From IMG/VR virus record IMGVR_UViG_3300009059_000716, positions 30,823 through 94,822 of that record: a DNA stretch of 64,000 nt, one strand, 5' to 3'. The position numbers and the translations under genes are program-made. Each line of letters starts with the position of its first letter. The stretch's first letter is position 1. The stretch is from a virus. Below, piece after piece: positions 24,609-50,033 of this stretch. The notes beneath the pieces were generated by a model. The model worked only from the letters and a program-made list of their open reading frames with translations. It was not told the origin of the DNA and did no database searches.

Positions 24609-26813
24609 ATGAAAGGAACCCTTTTTTCAACAGATTTTGTTAAAGACTCTAATGGAAACTTAAGATTGCTTGAAATCAATACAGATACTGCTATTGTTTC
24701 TTCTGCAATCAAACAATTAGACTTTACAGGATTTAAACAAGTATTAGAAAGTAATTCTATTACAAAAGTAAAGACAATCCATAAACTATATCAAGAAGAT
24801 ATCGTAGAAGCATTAAAAGCATACTTAGATGCAAATGTACCTTCAGTAAACTCTTTTGAAAGTATAGTTGAAGATAGCAACACTATTTATCCTACATCTG
24901 TAGAAGATGCAGCAGATACCTTTATCTTAAGGTTAGCTTATGATGAAGCTGCATTATTAGATAGTGAATATGCTAAAAACACACACAATATTCTAAAACT
25001 ATTCAGCGACAATGGGCAAATTAGTTCAACAGTTGGGTATTATTATGCTGGAGGCGGTAGTATAGAAGACCACCTTACAAGAGATTTTAATGCTGAAAAC
25101 GTTCCTGATATTTTAGTTAAAAACTTGAACACTACTTTAGGAGAGCCGATTGAGTTCTTTAAAATAGGTCAATCAAGTAAGACAGCTGAAGATAGATTTG
25201 CTGATGTATTCGATATGTTAGATGATACTAAAATTGCTATGAACTTCTACAACGATGAAGCAGCAGCAAAAGTAGAATCTTTTAGAACATTACACATAGT
25301 ATACGGAAGCGACCTAAACGTTATCGATGTAGCAGGATTTAAATCTTCAGCTATATTAGATAAACCAGCTTCTCTATCAGTAGTAGATGAAGATATAGTA
25401 ACGAAAGTAGATGTAAAGCACTACCATGAATTAACTACTACATTACCTAGATTTGGAGTAGGTTCTAACTACGGAGGTATCTTTGAAGAAGAGTTTATTG
25501 TAAAAGCAGACGGTACGTTAGTACCTATTAAAGACGCTACAGTAGGAGATTCCTTTAAATCATACTTTATTTCAGGTTCACCCGATACAGACATTGAATC
25601 AGAATATCTAGCATGGACTTACCCAGGATCTGAATTACCTAGTGGTTCTTACGCTACAACTTCTACTTTAGTAAACAACTTAGAAGTAGGTTTATTCTAT
25701 AATATGATCTTCCACGTAACTTTACAAGACGGAAGTGATTTTAGAGCAACAGGAAACTCTCACGTATTAGTTTACGATGTACAGGCAGACTTATTAAAGT
25801 ATGTTGCAGTAAACTATCTATCATCAGATAAACATAAATTAATATCTGCAGGAAATGGATTAGTAGATATTACAGGAGTTGTTTGTGAGATATTAGATGG
25901 GGAGTATTCTTCTCATATTCTAGATATGGAAATAGCCGATACATTCTTCATCGGTGATGGACAATTAAGCGTTAAGATTGTTGCCCACAACTGCTTCCCA
26001 GCTGGTACTAAAATTACAATGGCTGATGGTTCAGTCAAAAACATTGAAGACGTTAAGGCAGGAGATAAACTATTAACTATCAACGAAAATACTTTAGAAC
26101 AATCAGAAGGTAGAGTTGGAGATGTATTAGTTAAGAAAGATAGATTGTTATTCGAATTCAAATTAGAAGACGGAGGAGTAATCAAATCTACATCTCATCA
26201 CAGATATTTCGTAAAAGAAAAGTCATGGTTAACTGCTCAAGATATTCAAGTAGGAGACGTATTAGTTAGATCAAACGGAGATGATGTCAAAGTAGAATCA
26301 ATTGAACAGCACGAAGGTGAGTTTGAAGTATTCCATATTATTGATGTAAAAGATAACCATACTTACTACGCAGAAGATATTTTAGTTCATAACTATAAAG
26401 CTTGTTTCATCGCTGGAACAGAGATTACTTTAGCGAATGGAGATGTTAAAAATATCGAAGATGTAGCAGTAGGAGAAGAAGTTCTTACTTACAACGAAGA
26501 TAAAAAAGAAACAGAAGCAGGAGTAGTAGGAGACTTGAAGAAACATGAAGTTCAATCTGTAATCAGATTAACTCTTGATAATGAGAATGTAATCGTAACA
26601 ACTGAAGAACATCCTTTCTATGTAGTAGATGCAGGATGGGTAAAAGCAGGAGAATTACAACCATTAGATGTTTGTTTAAAAGAAGACGGTAAAGAATCTC
26701 TAATCTCTTCAGTAGAGGTATTAGAAGAGAAACATGAAGTATTTAACTTACTAAGCGTTTCTGAAAACCATAACTTCTTCGCTAACGGAATATTAGTTCA
26801 CAATAAAAAATAA
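24609..26813 (+). CDS. Protein with three tandem Hint (intein-like) domains at the C-terminus
   Basis: A 734-residue protein. Residues 1-289 are unassigned; the opening DFVKDSNGNLRLLEINTDTA recalls the end motif of ATP-grasp proteins. Three Hint domains follow. Hint1 (about 290-461) lacks the starting Cys (Gly290) but keeps a GNSHVLV block and ends AHN. Hint2 (462-595) begins CFPAGTKITMADG, has STSHHRYF and ends ILVHN. Hint3 (599-732) begins CFIAGTEITLANG, has TTEEHPFYV and ends ILVHN plus KK. Each HN pair is a self-cleavage site in inteins and BIL domains. Residue +1 is Cys after Hint1, Tyr after Hint2 and Lys after Hint3, so cleavage rather than splicing is expected. Confidence 0.8.
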   Translation: MKGTLFSTDFVKDSNGNLRLLEINTDTAIVSSAIKQLDFTGFKQVLESNSITKVKTIHKLYQEDIVEALKAYLDANVPSVNSFESIVEDSNTIYPTSVEDAADTFILRLAYDEAALLDSEYAKNTHNILKLFSDNGQISSTVGYYYAGGGSIEDHLTRDFNAENVPDILVKNLNTTLGEPIEFFKIGQSSKTAEDRFADVFDMLDDTKIAMNFYNDEAAAKVESFRTLHIVYGSDLNVIDVAGFKSSAILDKPASLSVVDEDIVTKVDVKHYHELTTTLPRFGVGSNYGGIFEEEFIVKADGTLVPIKDATVGDSFKSYFISGSPDTDIESEYLAWTYPGSELPSGSYATTSTLVNNLEVGLFYNMIFHVTLQDGSDFRATGNSHVLVYDVQADLLKYVAVNYLSSDKHKLISAGNGLVDITGVVCEILDGEYSSHILDMEIADTFFIGDGQLSVKIVAHNCFPAGTKITMADGSVKNIEDVKAGDKLLTINENTLEQSEGRVGDVLVKKDRLLFEFKLEDGGVIKSTSHHRYFVKEKSWLTAQDIQVGDVLVRSNGDDVKVESIEQHEGEFEVFHIIDVKDNHTYYAEDILVHNYKACFIAGTEITLANGDVKNIEDVAVGEEVLTYNEDKKETEAGVVGDLKKHEVQSVIRLTLDNENVIVTTEEHPFYVVDAGWVKAGELQPLDVCLKEDGKESLISSVEVLEEKHEVFNLLSVSENHNFFANGILVHNKK

Positions 26814-30628: not shown

Positions 30629-31509
30629 ATTTTTTAGATAGTCAATATCAAGACCTCCTCAAATACATTATTGAGAAAGGTCAAATAAAAGAAGATAGAA
30701 CCGGAACCGGAACATTATCAGTATTTGGTAGACAATTTAGACATGAGATGTCATTAGGCTTTCCTCTCCTAACAACAAAGAAGATAGCAGTCAAAACTAT
30801 GATGACTGAACTGAAATGGTTTCTAAAAGGAGATACTAATATCAAGTATTTAGTTGATAACGGTTGTAATATTTGGAATGGTGATGCTTATAAGAATTAT
30901 AGAAATAAGTTTGAACCAGCCCCTTATCAATTTACTCCAGATACAATGGAAGAGTTCATCAACAAAATCAAAACCGATGATGAGTTCGCAGAGGAGTGGG
31001 GTGAGTTAGGTCCAATATATGGAAAGCAATGGACTGATTGGAATGGTATAGACCAGATATTAAATCTTCTTAACTCAATAAAGAAGAACCCAAATAGTAG
31101 AAGATTGATGGTATCGGCTTGGAATGTAGGTGAATTACATGAGATGACATTACCTCCTTGTCATTACGGATTCCAGATAAATGTTAGAGGAGAGTATTTA
31201 GACCTAATGTGGAATCAAAGAAGTGTAGATACATTTTTAGGAGTACCTTTTAATATAGCCTCATATGGTCTGCTACTTAGTCTAATAGCGTATGAGACAG
31301 GTTATAAGCCTGGTTCTCTCATAGGATCTCTAGGAGATACACATCTATACACAAACCATATAGAACAGGCGAAGGAACAGATAAAAAGAACTTCATTTGA
31401 TCTTCCTACTCTTAAGATTATTTCATCTGATATTCTAAATGGAGAGTTTGAAGTAGAGTTTGAGAACTATATTTCACATCCTGCAATAAAAGCACCTTTA
31501 TCAAATTAA
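30625..31509 (+). CDS. thyA: Thymidylate synthase
   Basis: A 294-residue classical ThyA. The ATG at 30625 overlaps the preceding stop; a TTG 6 bases earlier is not needed. DRTGTGTLSVFGRQFRHEM is the phosphate-binding start. LPPCHYGFQINVRGEYLDLM carries catalytic Cys179. QRSVDTFLGVPFNIASYGLL and GDTHLYTNH are the dUMP/folate-binding blocks. It converts dUMP to dTMP with methylenetetrahydrofolate, raising dTTP for phage DNA synthesis. No mutation of key residues seen. No dihydrofolate reductase gene is next to it. Confidence 0.97.
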   Translation: MNFLDSQYQDLLKYIIEKGQIKEDRTGTGTLSVFGRQFRHEMSLGFPLLTTKKIAVKTMMTELKWFLKGDTNIKYLVDNGCNIWNGDAYKNYRNKFEPAPYQFTPDTMEEFINKIKTDDEFAEEWGELGPIYGKQWTDWNGIDQILNLLNSIKKNPNSRRLMVSAWNVGELHEMTLPPCHYGFQINVRGEYLDLMWNQRSVDTFLGVPFNIASYGLLLSLIAYETGYKPGSLIGSLGDTHLYTNHIEQAKEQIKRTSFDLPTLKIISSDILNGEFEVEFENYISHPAIKAPLSN

Positions 31510-37065: not shown

Positions 37066-37620
37066 ATGTCCACATTAGAATTCTACCCTACACTTACTCC
37101 AATCGAAATGTTACAGGAAGGTATATTTGGAGGTTCATATTTCGGAGTAGAGAAGTTGCAAGGAGATCAAGATTACCTACCTCTCTTTGAAACGTTAGGA
37201 GATATAGATCCTGCTCTCTATTTAGGAAACAAATATAAACCTAAAGTAAATAAGTTCAAAGTACGTTCGGGAATGCCATATCAATATTGGGTAGATATGA
37301 AATGGATGCATGCAGATGATCCATATGGTTGGTTTGAATGGTACATTAAATACTTCAACGGACGTAGACATCCAGATGACAATAGACAGATTTCTAGATG
37401 GCAGGACTTTGCCGGAAGGAATGGAAGATGGAGAAACAATATCTATAAGAAGATATATGATACAGGAGATTGGAATGTATCTCCTCGTATTCAGCAATCA
37501 TTATTACATTGGGGATATAAAGTTAATGAAGGAGATTATAACTTATGGTTAAACTCTATTCATAAATCAGATGAATGGTGTCAGTATGGCGGAATGCCTT
37601 CACCAAAAGCTTATATGTAA
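37066..37620 (+). CDS. Unrecognised protein
   Basis: A 184-residue aromatic- and Asp-rich protein (WMHADDPYGWFEWYIKYFNG, then RNGRWRNNIYKKI) with many Trp and Tyr. I associate similar proteins with marine phages, with no known role. The leader is AAAGGTTATG, and the gene follows the competing hairpins. Confidence 0.6.
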   Translation: MSTLEFYPTLTPIEMLQEGIFGGSYFGVEKLQGDQDYLPLFETLGDIDPALYLGNKYKPKVNKFKVRSGMPYQYWVDMKWMHADDPYGWFEWYIKYFNGRRHPDDNRQISRWQDFAGRNGRWRNNIYKKIYDTGDWNVSPRIQQSLLHWGYKVNEGDYNLWLNSIHKSDEWCQYGGMPSPKAYM

Positions 37621-41689: not shown

Positions 41690-42202
41690 ATGGCAAATTA
41701 TTTATCAGTAAACAAAAAGTATTCATCGTTTAATTCTCAACTTGCTCAGTCAGAAAAGAATGACTGCTTTGTAAGAGCGTTAGCTGTTGCAGGTGAAACA
41801 GATTATCAAACAGCTCATCAAATAGCTAAAGATGTATTTGGAAGAAGAGAGAAGAAAGGAACTTTAGGTTATATGATTCACTCTGCATTCTTAAAAGCAG
41901 AAGCTGCAGGAATGATGTTAGGAGGTAAAAAGCTTGAGGTAGCGGTATTAGGTAGAAGAGATACCAAAAATAGATATAAGGTTAAAGGAGAAGTAATTTG
42001 GAGACAAAAGACTCTAAAAAGCTTTATCGAATCTCATCCAGTAGGAAATTATATCGTTACAGTTGCCGGACATGCATTAGCAGTAATAGATGGAGAGTTA
42101 GCAGATTGGTCTAAAGAAGGATTCAAACCTACTCGTAAAGTTCAAGCAGCTTATAGAGTTCATCCTCAACAAATAGCATCTCAATTAAGTCTATTTGAAT
42201 AG
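41690..42202 (+). CDS. Papain-like cysteine peptidase candidate
   Basis: A 170-residue protein. EKNDCFVRALAVAG places a Cys at the start of a helix (about residue 27), and YIVTVAGHALAVIDGELADW gives a His in a strand with a following Asp (about residues 125-140). This is the Cys-His-Asp order of papain-fold peptidases such as C39-type domains. It has no signal peptide. Phage papain-like proteins of this size occur; substrate and role here are unknown. Confidence 0.6.
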   Translation: MANYLSVNKKYSSFNSQLAQSEKNDCFVRALAVAGETDYQTAHQIAKDVFGRREKKGTLGYMIHSAFLKAEAAGMMLGGKKLEVAVLGRRDTKNRYKVKGEVIWRQKTLKSFIESHPVGNYIVTVAGHALAVIDGELADWSKEGFKPTRKVQAAYRVHPQQIASQLSLFE

Positions 42203-42281: not shown

Positions 42282-42500
42282 ATGTTCTACCAAATTAAAA
42301 ACACCTCAAAATTAAAATTTAATTTAATTGCTGTGAATTCAAAAAGCAAAATCTTTAACGCTATAAAAGAAGCTGGTTGGGTTGCATCTGAATGCAAAAT
42401 AATTGCAATGGATGATTCATTAAAAAATACATTCACAAATATTAAAACTGGCAATCGCAATAAAAAAGGACGCCAATTTGCAATGAGAGCGGGGGTTTAA
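42282..42500 (+). CDS. Small basic protein
   Basis: A 72-residue Lys/Asn-rich protein (MFYQIKNTSKLKFNLIAVNS onward) with a beta start, a helix (FNAIKEAGWVASECKII) and a basic end (GNRNKKGRQFAMRAG). Its leader (AATCATTTTTATG) differs from the standard AAAGGTTATG. Function unknown. Confidence 0.55.
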   Translation: MFYQIKNTSKLKFNLIAVNSKSKIFNAIKEAGWVASECKIIAMDDSLKNTFTNIKTGNRNKKGRQFAMRAGV

Positions 42501-42809: not shown

Positions 42810-43130
42810 ATGACGATTCAAGATCAAGCAAAGCAATTAAAGAACGACGTTAAGCAATTTATTAATGGAGGATATGTTTGGATGCACAAAAGAAAGGCTG
42901 CCAAATGGACAGGTGGAGGAGAGTATTATGTAGTTGCTTTCCAAACATTAGAGAAGGAGAACAAAGAAGAGGACTTAATTACTCTACAATCATTAATACT
43001 TCCAGAAGGTTGGGTTGCATATTGGACAGGTTTCAGAATTGAACTTTATAAGAGAATAGGAGAAGGAGATTTACAGTTGGATGATATACAATATAAACAT
43101 TTTACATTAGAATTCGAAAAATTACAATAA
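42810..43130 (+). CDS. Small unrecognised protein
   Basis: A 106-residue protein, mixed helix/strand, with GYVWMHKRKAAKWTGGGEYY and VAYWTGFRIELYKR segments rich in Trp. No motif recognised. It is followed by a GC-rich structured RNA candidate. Confidence 0.55.
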   Translation: MTIQDQAKQLKNDVKQFINGGYVWMHKRKAAKWTGGGEYYVVAFQTLEKENKEEDLITLQSLILPEGWVAYWTGFRIELYKRIGEGDLQLDDIQYKHFTLEFEKLQ

Positions 43131-43139
43131 GAGTAGAAA

Positions 43140-43202
43140 GGGGAATGGCGTTTTTCTCTCCCCGACGAAGTCGCCACGCGCATTTTTAACGAAACTTTTC
43201 TT
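43140..43202 (+). ncRNA. Candidate structured RNA element, copy A
   Basis: GGGGA (43140) pairs with TCCCC (43159-43163) around a loop containing GGCGTTTTT. The next hairpin is CGAC-GAA-GTCG (43163-43173), followed by ACGCGCATTTTTAACGAAA. The loop GCGT can pair with ACGC of the tail to make a pseudoknot. The same build with compensated bases recurs at 44442. GC-rich in an AT-rich genome. Confidence 0.5.
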
Positions 43203-43211
43203 TAAATAAAG

Positions 43212-43248
43212 TTGGTTCGTATTAGATTTCTTCTTATATTAAGGTATA
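43212..43248 (+). promoter_or_regulatory. Bacteroidota-type promoter, GTTGGTTCGTATT, best copy
   Basis: TTG at 43212-43214 within GTTGGTTCGTATT, a 20-nt spacer, TATATTAAGGTATA from 43235. 33 bases to the ATG at 43268. Confidence 0.85.
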
Positions 43249-43267
43249 GAAATTAAAAATAAAGGTT

Positions 43268-43522
43268 ATGACTTATTACACAGCATTAGTTTTAGTTGAA
43301 AGAAAGAACGCTTTTACAAACCGTATAAATAAGGTTAAAGAAAAATACGTAGTAGAAGCTAAATACGATTCAGAAGTAGAATCAAAAGTACTTTCTTATT
43401 TTGAAAATGGTGGAGGGGTATGGAACACGACAATGAAAGATGGTTCGGTAGTTAATGTATCAGGTAATGTTCTTAGTGTTTTAAGTATTACTCGCACTAC
43501 AGTTGAAGGAGTAATAGTATAA
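43268..43522 (+). CDS. Small beta-rich protein
   Basis: An 84-residue protein (MTYYTALVLVERKNAFTNRI onward) with beta strands and a helix (YDSEVESKVLSYFENGG), Val/Thr-rich end. Behind a consensus promoter and leader. Function unknown. Confidence 0.55.
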   Translation: MTYYTALVLVERKNAFTNRINKVKEKYVVEAKYDSEVESKVLSYFENGGGVWNTTMKDGSVVNVSGNVLSVLSITRTTVEGVIV

Positions 43523-43537
43523 ATTAAAATAAAGGTT

Positions 43538-43813
43538 ATGAGTAAATTTAAAACATTCGAAGACATTACTTGGAAAGCACACCAACTTGGAAAAGGTGCA
43601 ATTCAAGGATTATTAATGCTAGATAATGGCATAGAATTATCTATTGTAGCAGGACAGGGGATGTATAGCACACCCCGTGAAGATTTAGGTTCACCCGATT
43701 TACACTCATCATTTGAAGTTGCAATATTTGATAAAAAGGGTGATATGGTTGATGATGTGTTAGGGTGGCAATCGAGAGAGGATATAAATAACTTAATTCA
43801 AATACATTCCTAA
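43538..43813 (+). CDS. Small unrecognised protein
   Basis: A 91-residue acidic protein with AAAGGTTATG leader, co-transcribed with the gene at 43268. Beta-rich (LLMLDNGIELSIVAGQGMYS, then SSFEVAIFDKKGD), C-terminal helix. Function unknown. Confidence 0.55.
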   Translation: MSKFKTFEDITWKAHQLGKGAIQGLLMLDNGIELSIVAGQGMYSTPREDLGSPDLHSSFEVAIFDKKGDMVDDVLGWQSREDINNLIQIHS

Positions 43814-43835
43814 AGTATAATACAAAATAAAGGTC

Positions 43836-44021
43836 ATGCCAAAGAAGAAATTAGCATTAGATTCAGAATCACATTTACATTTATTAACTCATTTGTTTGA
43901 TATCGAAGCGATGATTGAACCGGGTGAAGATATAATGCTTGATAGAGCATTAGAGAAACTAATTGAAGAGGTTAGGTTTTCGGATATAATTGTCTCATAT
44001 AAACTAATGAAAGATGAGTAG
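43836..44021 (+). CDS. Small acidic helical protein
   Basis: A 61-residue protein (MPKKKLALDSESHLHLLTHL onward), all-helical, acidic. The leader AAAGGTCATG is a variant of the standard one. It overlaps the next small gene by 8 bases. Function unknown. Confidence 0.5.
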   Translation: MPKKKLALDSESHLHLLTHLFDIEAMIEPGEDIMLDRALEKLIEEVRFSDIIVSYKLMKDE

Positions 44022-44154
44022 AAGTTATTGGGGATGTGAAATGGAATCTCCTATCTATCGAGAGGTAGCAGAAGAGATGAGGTTGAAGAAGGAACCATAT
44101 AGTCTTCAGAGTAATGAAAAGACTAAGAGAGGTAAGAAGAGTAATAAAGTCTAA
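44014..44154 (+). CDS. Small basic protein
   Basis: A 46-residue protein, MSRSYWGCEMESPIYREVAE onward, ending in a Lys-rich tail (KTKRGKKSNKV). It starts inside the preceding gene with an 8-base overlap. Function unknown; moderate support. Confidence 0.45.
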   Translation: MSRSYWGCEMESPIYREVAEEMRLKKEPYSLQSNEKTKRGKKSNKV

Positions 44155-44170
44155 CATTAATAAAACGTTT

Positions 44171-44371
44171 ATGAAAGAAGGTAGTTACGAAGAAGTAAAG
44201 TATGGAGATGAGACATTTAAAATAGATAAGTCGACAGGTAAGATTGAGACGAACTATACAATGAAGAACTCTCAAGGAAGGACAATAAAGCAAGAAGAGG
44301 ATAGTGCTAAGATAATAGGCATTGCTATAATAGCTTTGATTGTATTAGGAATCGTTTTAGTATTTGTATAA
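44171..44371 (+). CDS. Small C-tail-anchored membrane protein
   Basis: A 66-residue protein from the ATG at 44171 (MKEGSYEEVKYGDETFKIDK) with a C-terminal membrane segment (IIGIAIIALIVLGIVLVFV). A longer frame from 44114 overlaps the previous gene and lacks a better start. Tail-anchored topology with a cytoplasmic polar part. Function unknown. Confidence 0.5.
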   Translation: MKEGSYEEVKYGDETFKIDKSTGKIETNYTMKNSQGRTIKQEEDSAKIIGIAIIALIVLGIVLVFV

Positions 44372-44372
44372 G

Positions 44373-44447
44373 ATGGATGATGAAAGGATTTACAAAGCGA
44401 TAGAAGATTCTATTTTAGAGGAGTGGAAGAGGACGGAGTTGGAGTGA
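44373..44447 (+). CDS. Possible 24-residue acidic peptide
   Basis: MDDERIYKAIEDSILEEWKR then TELE, starting 2 bases after the preceding stop. The end overlaps the first arm of the RNA element at 44442. Weak support because of length. Confidence 0.3.
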   Translation: MDDERIYKAIEDSILEEWKRTELE

Positions 44448-44504
44448 GGGGGCGCTTTCCTCTCTCGACAACGAAGTTGTCACGCGCATATTTCACGAAA
44501 GGTC
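44442..44504 (+). ncRNA. Candidate structured RNA element, copy B
   Basis: GAGTGAGG (44442-44449) pairs with CCTCTCTC (44459-44466, one mismatch) around a loop with GGCGCTTT. The next hairpin is GACAAC-GAA-GTTGTC (44467-44481), then ACGCGCATATTTCACGAAA. Loop GCGC can pair with tail GCGC. It matches copy A at 43140 in layout, loop GAA and tail, with stems changed in compensating fashion. Confidence 0.5.
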
Positions 44505-44928
44505 CTACCATCCTTCCTTACATTCTACAATAAGGACAAATATGTGATAACAAGCAAAGCTTGTCTCTGAGGTAGTTAGTGATTTGGGTGAACACTTCAT
44601 ATTAAACCCTAACGAACCTATAAGAGAGATAAGGATACATATGGTAGATAGAGGGTAAATGGCTTATTTCTACTTAAGTATAGAACATATTGTAAGTGTA
44701 TAGATAATACCTAATGGAGACAACGCTATATGGGGTTAAAGACATCTAAAGATTATCTATAGAAACCTAAAGACAACTAAAGAAGAACTAAAGATTCTAT
44801 ATAGATCAATAGGAATAGAGTGTGTAGAATAATGAAGGCTTGTGAATGGAATGAGATATATAAAGTACAGGCGTGTGCCTCCCTCCCTTCCCTTTTCAAA
44901 ATTCTATAGAAAATATATGGTCAAATAG
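44505..44928 (+). other. Non-coding stretch with hairpins and operator-like repeats
   Basis: No gene of convincing length. The stretch holds hairpins TCCTTA/TAAGGA (44515-44536) and ACAAGC-AAA-GCTTGT (44550-44564). It also holds a GGGT/ACCC pair near 44586-44612, the CTAWAGA array at 44746-44794 and a pyrimidine-rich run at 44877-44893. Together with copy B of the RNA element it may be one long non-coding transcript or a regulatory island. Confidence 0.45.
44746..44794 (+). repeat. Phased CTAWAGA array 1 (five units)
   Basis: CTAAAGA or CTATAGA at 44746, 44757, 44767, 44777 and 44788, spaced 11, 10, 10 and 11 bp. Same heptamer and phase as at 45334 and 45471. Confidence 0.7.
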
Positions 44929-44965
44929 TTGCCGGCCTGCCATATTCTTCTTATATTAAGGTATA
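44929..44965 (+). promoter_or_regulatory. Bacteroidota-type promoter
   Basis: TTG at 44929-44931, a 20-nt spacer, TATATTAAGGTATA from 44952. It serves 44984 and lies between operator arrays 1 and 2. A CTATAGA lies at 44904. Confidence 0.8.
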
Positions 44966-49048: not shown

Positions 49049-49354
49049 ATGGTACAGTACATAGTAATTACAGTATTAGTTGTATTCTCCGGAATTTTAT
49101 CTTATCTTATATATAACCTACTAAGAAAAGTAGAGAAATATGAAGATATAACCTTAGATCAAACTAAATACTTACAGAACATATCGAACATAATAGCAGA
49201 ATCTCAACAACACCTTTCAAAGTTAGATGAAAATGGGGTATTTCAATCTGATGATGAGGTTGGAGAATTCTTTAAACAAATGCAAGCAATACAGACTGAG
49301 CTAGACAAATACATGCTCCCCGAAAACTATGGCAAGGAAGAAATCCAAAGCTAA
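49049..49354 (+). CDS. Membrane-anchored coiled-coil protein
   Basis: A 101-residue protein with an N-terminal membrane segment (residues 3-23, YIVITVLVVFSGILSYLIY) and a helical, acidic rest with heptad features. It overlaps the sigma gene by 26 bases. Function unknown. Confidence 0.6.
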   Translation: MVQYIVITVLVVFSGILSYLIYNLLRKVEKYEDITLDQTKYLQNISNIIAESQQHLSKLDENGVFQSDDEVGEFFKQMQAIQTELDKYMLPENYGKEEIQS

Positions 49355-50033
49355 CTACTTTACCTCAGAAACAGAAGATTATATAGTAAAATATAACCAA
49401 TCAACTGATCACGATTACAGAGCTAAAATATTTACAGACCACATTTATTTACCGTTTTATAAATTAGCGGAAAATATAATACATACATTTAAATTCTACT
49501 ACACGGATGTAGAGCGGATAGAAGACCTCAAACACGAGGTCGTTTCTGTTTTACTTGAACAGAAGATAGATAAGTTCGATCCTACGAACGGAGCTAAAGC
49601 ATATTCTTATTTTGGTACAATAGTTAAAAGATGGTTAATTAACTACAATAATATTAACTACAAAAAACTAAAACAGATAGGTTCCTTTTCTGATATAGAA
49701 GAATCATATGAAACAACAGGAGACCCAGATTTTTCTAACGCTAGGACATTGAGTACATTTGTAGACGAATGGGTTGAAGAGATGTATAACGAAATTGATT
49801 ATATATTTCCTAAATCTGATGAGTTAAAAATAGCAGATGCTGTTTTGACTATATTTAAAACAAGGAACGATTTAGATATATTTAAGAAAAAAGCTTTATA
49901 TATCTATATAAGAGAAATGACTGATTGCGAAACACCGCAACTAACTAAAGTATTAAATGTACTTAAAAGTAATTTCTACGAAAAATACCAACATTACTAC
50001 GATCTAGGTCTTCTTTCCCGAAAACCATTGTAA
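49329..50033 (+). CDS. T4 gp55-like late sigma factor
   Basis: A 234-residue protein. EDLKHEVVSVLLEQKIDKFD, then GAKAYSYFGTIVKRWLINYN, is the sigma-70 region-2-like signature of gp55-type late sigma factors: acidic helix, FDPxNGxxAYSYF, basic helix. There is no region 4, as in gp55. It would direct host RNA polymerase to late promoters of the structural genes. It begins within the preceding gene and sits just before the baseplate cluster. Recognised by motif; a clamp/co-activator gene (gp45/gp33) is not in the window. Confidence 0.8.
   Translation: MARKKSKANYFTSETEDYIVKYNQSTDHDYRAKIFTDHIYLPFYKLAENIIHTFKFYYTDVERIEDLKHEVVSVLLEQKIDKFDPTNGAKAYSYFGTIVKRWLINYNNINYKKLKQIGSFSDIEESYETTGDPDFSNARTLSTFVDEWVEEMYNEIDYIFPKSDELKIADAVLTIFKTRNDLDIFKKKALYIYIREMTDCETPQLTKVLNVLKSNFYEKYQHYYDLGLLSRKPL

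Follow-up and report, generated by a model that had tools for sequence, protein, structure and literature searches.

The 64-kb stretch of viral DNA analysed here (the window; positions 30823 to 94822 of the 94.8-kb virus record G000) contains two related GC-rich segments, which raise the question of what kind of signal they represent and what it does for the phage. A sequence-only reading had interpreted them as an RNA element in AT-rich DNA, composed of two hairpins and a shared tail, and a sequence check located both copies where it had placed them. The heptamer CACGCGC occurs in the window, which has a GC content of 33%, at the two copies only (positions 43175 and 44481). The shared tail, ACGCGCATNTTTNACGAAA, is genuine: it occurs twice in the window at up to three mismatches, compared to a mean of 0.07 occurrences among 100 shuffled sequences, none of which contained two. 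Judged from its conservation, the element is almost certainly a real and previously unlisted signal, because its fold and seven-letter tag are kept even inside a protein-coding gene. The relevant features of the window are as follows.

42810..43130, + strand: 106-aa ORF directly upstream of copy c1
~43132..43195, + strand: element copy c1, locus b1; match to covariance model R1 at 43132-43191 (71.1 bits, E ~1e-13)
43140..43163, + strand: candidate hairpin 1 of c1, GGGGA (43140-43144) facing TCCCC (43159-43163), with GGCGTTT in the loop (from the sequence)
43163..43173, + strand: hairpin 2 of c1, CGAC-GAA-GTCG (from the sequence); stem covaries in the family
43175..43181, + strand: CACGCGC tail of c1 (from the sequence)
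44373..44447, + strand: 24-aa ORF, MDDERIYKAIEDSILEEWKRTELE, what is left of the small b2 ORF after truncation (from the sequence, by comparison with the intact ORF of L147, MDRIHKAIEESLIEDLKGWGFDIDALEESEGALSSLSTKSPRADLTEEEWCSYSGMPSPKFYE)
~44436..44500, + strand: element copy c2, locus b2; match to covariance model R1 at 44436-44497 (62.5 bits)
44442..44466, + strand: candidate hairpin 1 of c2, GAG.GAGGGG / TTCCTC.CTC (from the minimum-energy fold); contains the TGA stop codon at 44445-44447
44467..44481, + strand: hairpin 2 of c2, GACAAC-GAA-GTTGTC (from the sequence); stem covaries in the family
44481..44487, + strand: CACGCGC tail of c2 (from the sequence)

Copies of the element and their distribution

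While c1 and c2 were confirmed, the element had been regarded as two-copy, a count which proved too low: G000 harbors a third copy, c3, outside the window at record positions 25241 to 25301. Copy c3 adjoins the 3′ side of a 56-aa gene whose product scores 33.7 bits against the Pfam family Hc1 (histone H1-like; cut-off, 23.5), and which comes after groEL in this genome. Copy c1 begins 1 nt past the stop codon of the ORF at 42810 to 43130, for which Pfam and PHROG searches produced no match.

The sequence-only reading implied that homologues with preserved pairing should exist elsewhere, and a covariance model search found them in related phages. The model, constructed from 27 sequences with stem 2 (that of the second hairpin) as its sole structure, matched 34 of 39 phage records, with one to three copies each and a single orientation within each record, and 19 of the 25 records of a further set at E ≤ 0.01, one record being common to both sets. 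In total, no fewer than 52 related phage records carry the element, with nearly all matches far above noise. Flavobacterium phage vB_FspM_immuto_2-6A (Immutovirus, Baltic Sea) carries a strong copy behind its Hc1-like gene (42439 to 42498; 7e-14) and a second, weak copy without hairpin 2; the link to this phage came from protein searches, a DNA-level search of named phages having returned no match. Further copies were retrieved by a DNA pattern search of IMG/VR, and use of the Hc1-like protein as a query yielded 80 loci, in many of which the element comes immediately after the stop codon. When a landmark independent of the element was employed (a conserved neighboring protein, 53 loci), the element was near the landmark gene in most cases.

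The element family is apparently undescribed and is not in Rfam. No match was obtained in the window at the Rfam 15 gathering threshold, on the element up to an E value of 5, or at 11 further copy-bearing loci up to an E value of 1, nor was any tRNA or tmRNA detected, and a literature search found no description of the element. The sole Rfam match near the region, Flavo-1 RNA (RF01705; score, 16.9 bits; threshold, 42; E 2.7), lies off the element at 44328 to 44408 and was dismissed as a chance hit. When 85,000 genomes of bacteria and archaea were scanned with an exact pattern, four matches emerged, all of them unrelated, although absence from such genomes is unproven, since the pattern spans the AT-type tail only.

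Structure, genomic setting and inheritance

The element is about 60 letters in length, and its core consists of hairpin 2 followed by the near-invariant CACGCGC. As had been described for c1 and c2, the stems of hairpin 2 differ in sequence and remain paired around a GAA loop. Across the family, this hairpin is present in 73 of 77 distinct copies (a few, L032, L143, L175 and L183, lack it altogether), is closed by a C-G pair in all 73, and bears a GAA loop in 71 and a GCA loop in 2, while GC, AT, TA and CG are all encountered at the third pair. In the model alignment, 97.4% of stem 2 cells are paired, the covariation score was reached by none of 500 shuffles, and sliding the pairing destroys the signal. 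G-U pairs are absent from the inner three pairs and number four further out.

The stem covariation claimed for the element therefore stands, strongly, for hairpin 2, but not for hairpin 1, whose arms pair no better than composition-preserving shuffles (77 copies; mean z 0.04; 29% G-U). In the segment upstream of hairpin 2, a purine-rich arm is followed by a loop, frequently GCGYUU, and then by a CU-rich arm. Hairpin 1 is possibly a real helix, given that Watson-Crick stems can form in this segment in more deeply diverged relatives (z of −0.8 to −2.4 for folding of the whole element). Strand folding of single copies, which is not diagnostic, gave z values of −0.3 and −0.6 for c1 and c2, and both hairpins are absent from the minimum-energy fold of c1.

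The tail is exactly CACGCGC in 86 of 94 distinct copies, and CGCG is kept in all; the variants comprise CCCGCGC, GACGCGC and CACGCGG, and two copies identified later have CTCGCGC (the c1 orthologue of G047) and CACGCGA. A conserved H-type pseudoknot between loop and tail, for which GCGT:ACGC in c1 and GCGC:GCGC in c2 had been put forward, was rejected. These complementarities are present as strings, but they lie in different registers and so do not represent compensating changes at one pair. Moreover, the loop is free to change (GCGU, GCAU, GUGAU, GUUUUC and GUCGU) against a nearly fixed tail, with no compensation, and in approximately 17% of copies (16 of 94) the pseudoknot is impossible, there being no 4-nt complement.

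Three settings recur. Copies behind the Hc1-like gene (class a) have tails beginning 19 to 49 nt past the stop codon, and a terminator lies within 95 nt downstream in 22 of 26; in L027, L037 and L053, an extra gene follows the Hc1-like gene, and the element is then situated behind that gene. The six class b1 copies follow a 170-aa gene whose product terminates in QLSLFE or a similar sequence, and in each of them an ATG is found no more than 40 nt from the tail. Copy c1 is assigned to this locus because its G047 orthologue directly follows the 170-aa b1 gene, there the orthologue of the ORF at 41690 to 42202. In class b2, the element is in frame within a small ORF reaching a conserved C-terminus, either CHYSGLRSTxSYME or EWCxYxGMPSPKAYM; c2 occupies this locus, where its ORF is ended early by the TGA at 44445, with hairpin 2 and the tail intact. 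Automatic labels left 40 of the 94 copies unclassed, 19 of these 40 with an ATG within 40 nt, and some copies are intergenic, approximately 15 nt ahead of a start codon. As the 6 b1 copies and approximately 19 others are located just ahead of a start codon with no terminator, a strict 3′-end role fails for some copies. Every copy seen shares the strand of the gene that it follows or interrupts, a bias which cannot separate RNA from DNA, since nearly all genes of these phages are on one strand. Stop-codon readthrough was considered and rejected, as the reading frames past the stop vary from copy to copy and in many cases soon terminate.

Within the element, over its loop and tail, 20 distinct in-ORF copies, mostly found by a model that includes the tail, use CGC for Arg in 20 of 20 cases, AAG for Lys in 15 of 15 and CCA for Pro in 16 of 16. 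Right after the element, all four Thr codons are in use, as are three codons each for Ser and Val. Among the window's own genes, CGC accounts for 0.2% of 495 Arg codons (1 in ~500) and AAG for 24% of Lys codons. The codon pattern indicates that selection is acting on the nucleic acid itself, since codons are frozen across the element and free after it, and since c2 has outlived its broken ORF. Such double coding, with ORF codons frozen in some copies and the same element untranslated in others, constitutes direct evidence of a nucleic-acid-level function and points to a partner.

Identity is higher between copies that share a locus in different phages (78.1%) than between copies of one genome (75.4%, a value not above the background of 74.6%; P = 0.12), and the element is thus inherited in place, with no current spread. 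Genome G022, where copies a and b1 are 92% identical, represents an exception.

Possible roles of the element

We propose, with a probability of roughly 40%, that the element is a cis-acting mRNA tag which is bound by a trans-acting factor and controls transcript processing or stability. It would act as RNA inside phage mRNAs, where the factor would recognize both hairpin 2, with its C(GNA)G cap, and the single-stranded CACGCGC on its 3′ side, the upstream purine-arm/pyrimidine-arm segment serving as a loosely paired spacer or a second helix. Since the element is found only in this phage group, the factor is probably phage encoded. The most likely job would be in local transcript fate, either processing or the shielding of an mRNA end (3′ or intercistronic), because copies are found just past stop codons, where the groEL-Hc1 block finishes, in short intergenic gaps and late in a small last ORF. 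A more ambitious formulation, about which we are doubtful, is that the C(GNA)G hairpin and CACGCGC define a new, portable class of phage regulatory RNA, equally at home in untranslated and translated sequence and read by a dedicated phage factor, which sets the ends or lifetimes of chosen transcripts and is selected despite translation. Against the mRNA tag, the near absence of G-U pairs from stem 2 is atypical of RNA and would fit a hairpin in DNA, and any RNA structure in the b2 copies should be disrupted when they are translated. A role in DNA is possible on account of this almost wobble-free stem and of the placement in a translated ORF.

The main rival is a DNA-level function, to which we would give a minority share of belief, in which the C-GNA-G hairpin, extruded or formed on single-stranded DNA, would act with CACGCGC as a site at which replication is primed, recombination occurs or packaging takes place. 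Among DNA mini-hairpins, those with a C-GNA-G loop on a strictly Watson-Crick stem are an exceptionally stable type. Hairpin 2 is of this type, having the C-G closing pair, the GNA loop and a Watson-Crick stem whose inner pairs include no G-T. Stable DNA mini-hairpins of this kind are among the subjects touched on in PMC4686876. Location in a translated ORF would be no obstacle to a DNA site, and a conserved, AT-rich, origin-like non-coding stretch lies ~60 to 250 nt past b2/c2, but no AT-rich companion of this kind was noted at either the Hc1 or the b1 locus. Furthermore, the positions of the element follow gene ends and reading direction, and its G-rich and CT-rich arms would need many G-T pairs (29%), which are intolerable in DNA if that helix matters.

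Compared to the mRNA tag, antitermination, small-RNA and mobile-element readings are less well supported. An antiterminator-like element, through which the nascent RNA would modify RNA polymerase, with or without a factor, and cause terminator read-through or pausing, is unlikely. Phage HK022 put is a cis element of ~60 to 75 nt in which two hairpins lie side by side and unpaired bases are conserved, and which occurs more than once per genome, and lambda-type nut (boxA-boxB) combines a small purine-capped hairpin with a neighboring conserved single-stranded sequence. The element resembles put in size, two-hairpin layout (its own hairpin 1 being a candidate), conserved unpaired bases and presence in several copies per genome, and resembles nut in its purine-capped hairpin and adjoining conserved single-stranded sequence; a terminator also follows ~30 nt downstream in the same 22 of 26 class a copies. 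However, put and nut sites are found near promoters, put in the 5′ part of early transcripts, rather than at the ends of gene blocks, whereas the element is located after stop codons, before start codons or inside an ORF. Its sequence also differs from that of put, and its hosts are Bacteroidota; with regard to nut, the conserved sequence is CACGCGC, 3′ of the hairpin, instead of boxA on the 5′ side of boxB. In several copies, promoter-like sequence is present past the terminator, such that read-through seems unneeded, and b1 copies have no nearby terminator at all.

It is quite improbable that the element is a 3′-UTR-derived small RNA whose CACGCGC pairs with target RNAs. The tail is near-invariant and predicted to be single stranded, and the class a terminator would define a 3′ end, but the in-ORF and intercistronic copies have no terminator, no target was identified, and the complement GCGCGTG is absent from the window.

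Rickettsia palindromic elements and bacterial REP sequences are short hairpins found between genes and in frame inside genes, and a dispersed element of this kind, spread by transposition and functionless for the phage, would account for several dispersed copies, for the in-frame class and for the G022 pair; this reading is already disfavored and retains very little probability, given the low copy number at fixed loci, the frozen synonymous sites and the positional inheritance, as within-genome copies are, G022 excepted, no more alike than orthologues. An N4-type virion RNA polymerase hairpin promoter, prompted by the GNA loop, was rejected because its template orientation would direct transcription against all genes; no giant polymerase ORF was found in the examined part of the genome.

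Gene control in Bacteroidota phages has been little studied, and the element extends across a large group of Immutovirus-related phages, in which the proposed mRNA tag is testable using the cultured phage immuto_2-6A on Flavobacterium sp. LMO8.

Neighboring features

At L029, L030, L031 and L081 to L099, a similar Hc1-like gene is present without the element and is associated with a simple G-rich terminator hairpin (e.g., AGGGGGGCGTTTGCTCCCCT), a structure similar to arm 1 of the element paired with a fully complementary partner.

A conserved non-coding stretch of ~350 nt was observed behind b2/c2, at 44565 to 44945 in the window and in L134, L138, L139, L147, L148, L149, L159, L200, L215 and L224. 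It comprises, in order, CTGAGGTAGTnTAnGACTTTGG, AGAGA, an AT-rich part (TATATATTCATATATAGATATA) and a final pyrimidine and T run, and it looks like a replication origin or a regulatory region; RNAalifold detected no common RNA structure in it. Just before CTGAGGTAGT, at 44545 to 44564 and at the same place in L134, L138, L147, L148 and L149, there is a small hairpin with a variable stem and an A-rich loop (e.g., ACAAGC-AAA-GCTTGT and GCATGC-TAAA-GCATGT), the stems of which seem to compensate. In L152 (9440 to 10060, corresponding to immuto 66297 to 66917), a non-coding region with many ACCCGTnn repeats lies near the site of the conserved AT-rich region of other phages.

The C-terminal motif EWCxYxGMPSPKAYM or CHYSGLRSTxSYME of the b2 ORF recurs at the C-terminus of the ORF at 37066 to 37620 (window 37573 to 37617) and in L133, L134, L147 and L149, and is common to two different adjacent proteins, as if it had been moved or fused between genes. 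Finally, the protein encoded at 49329 to 50033 displays a very weak match to the sigma factor SigI (E 0.0098) and is possibly a phage late sigma factor.
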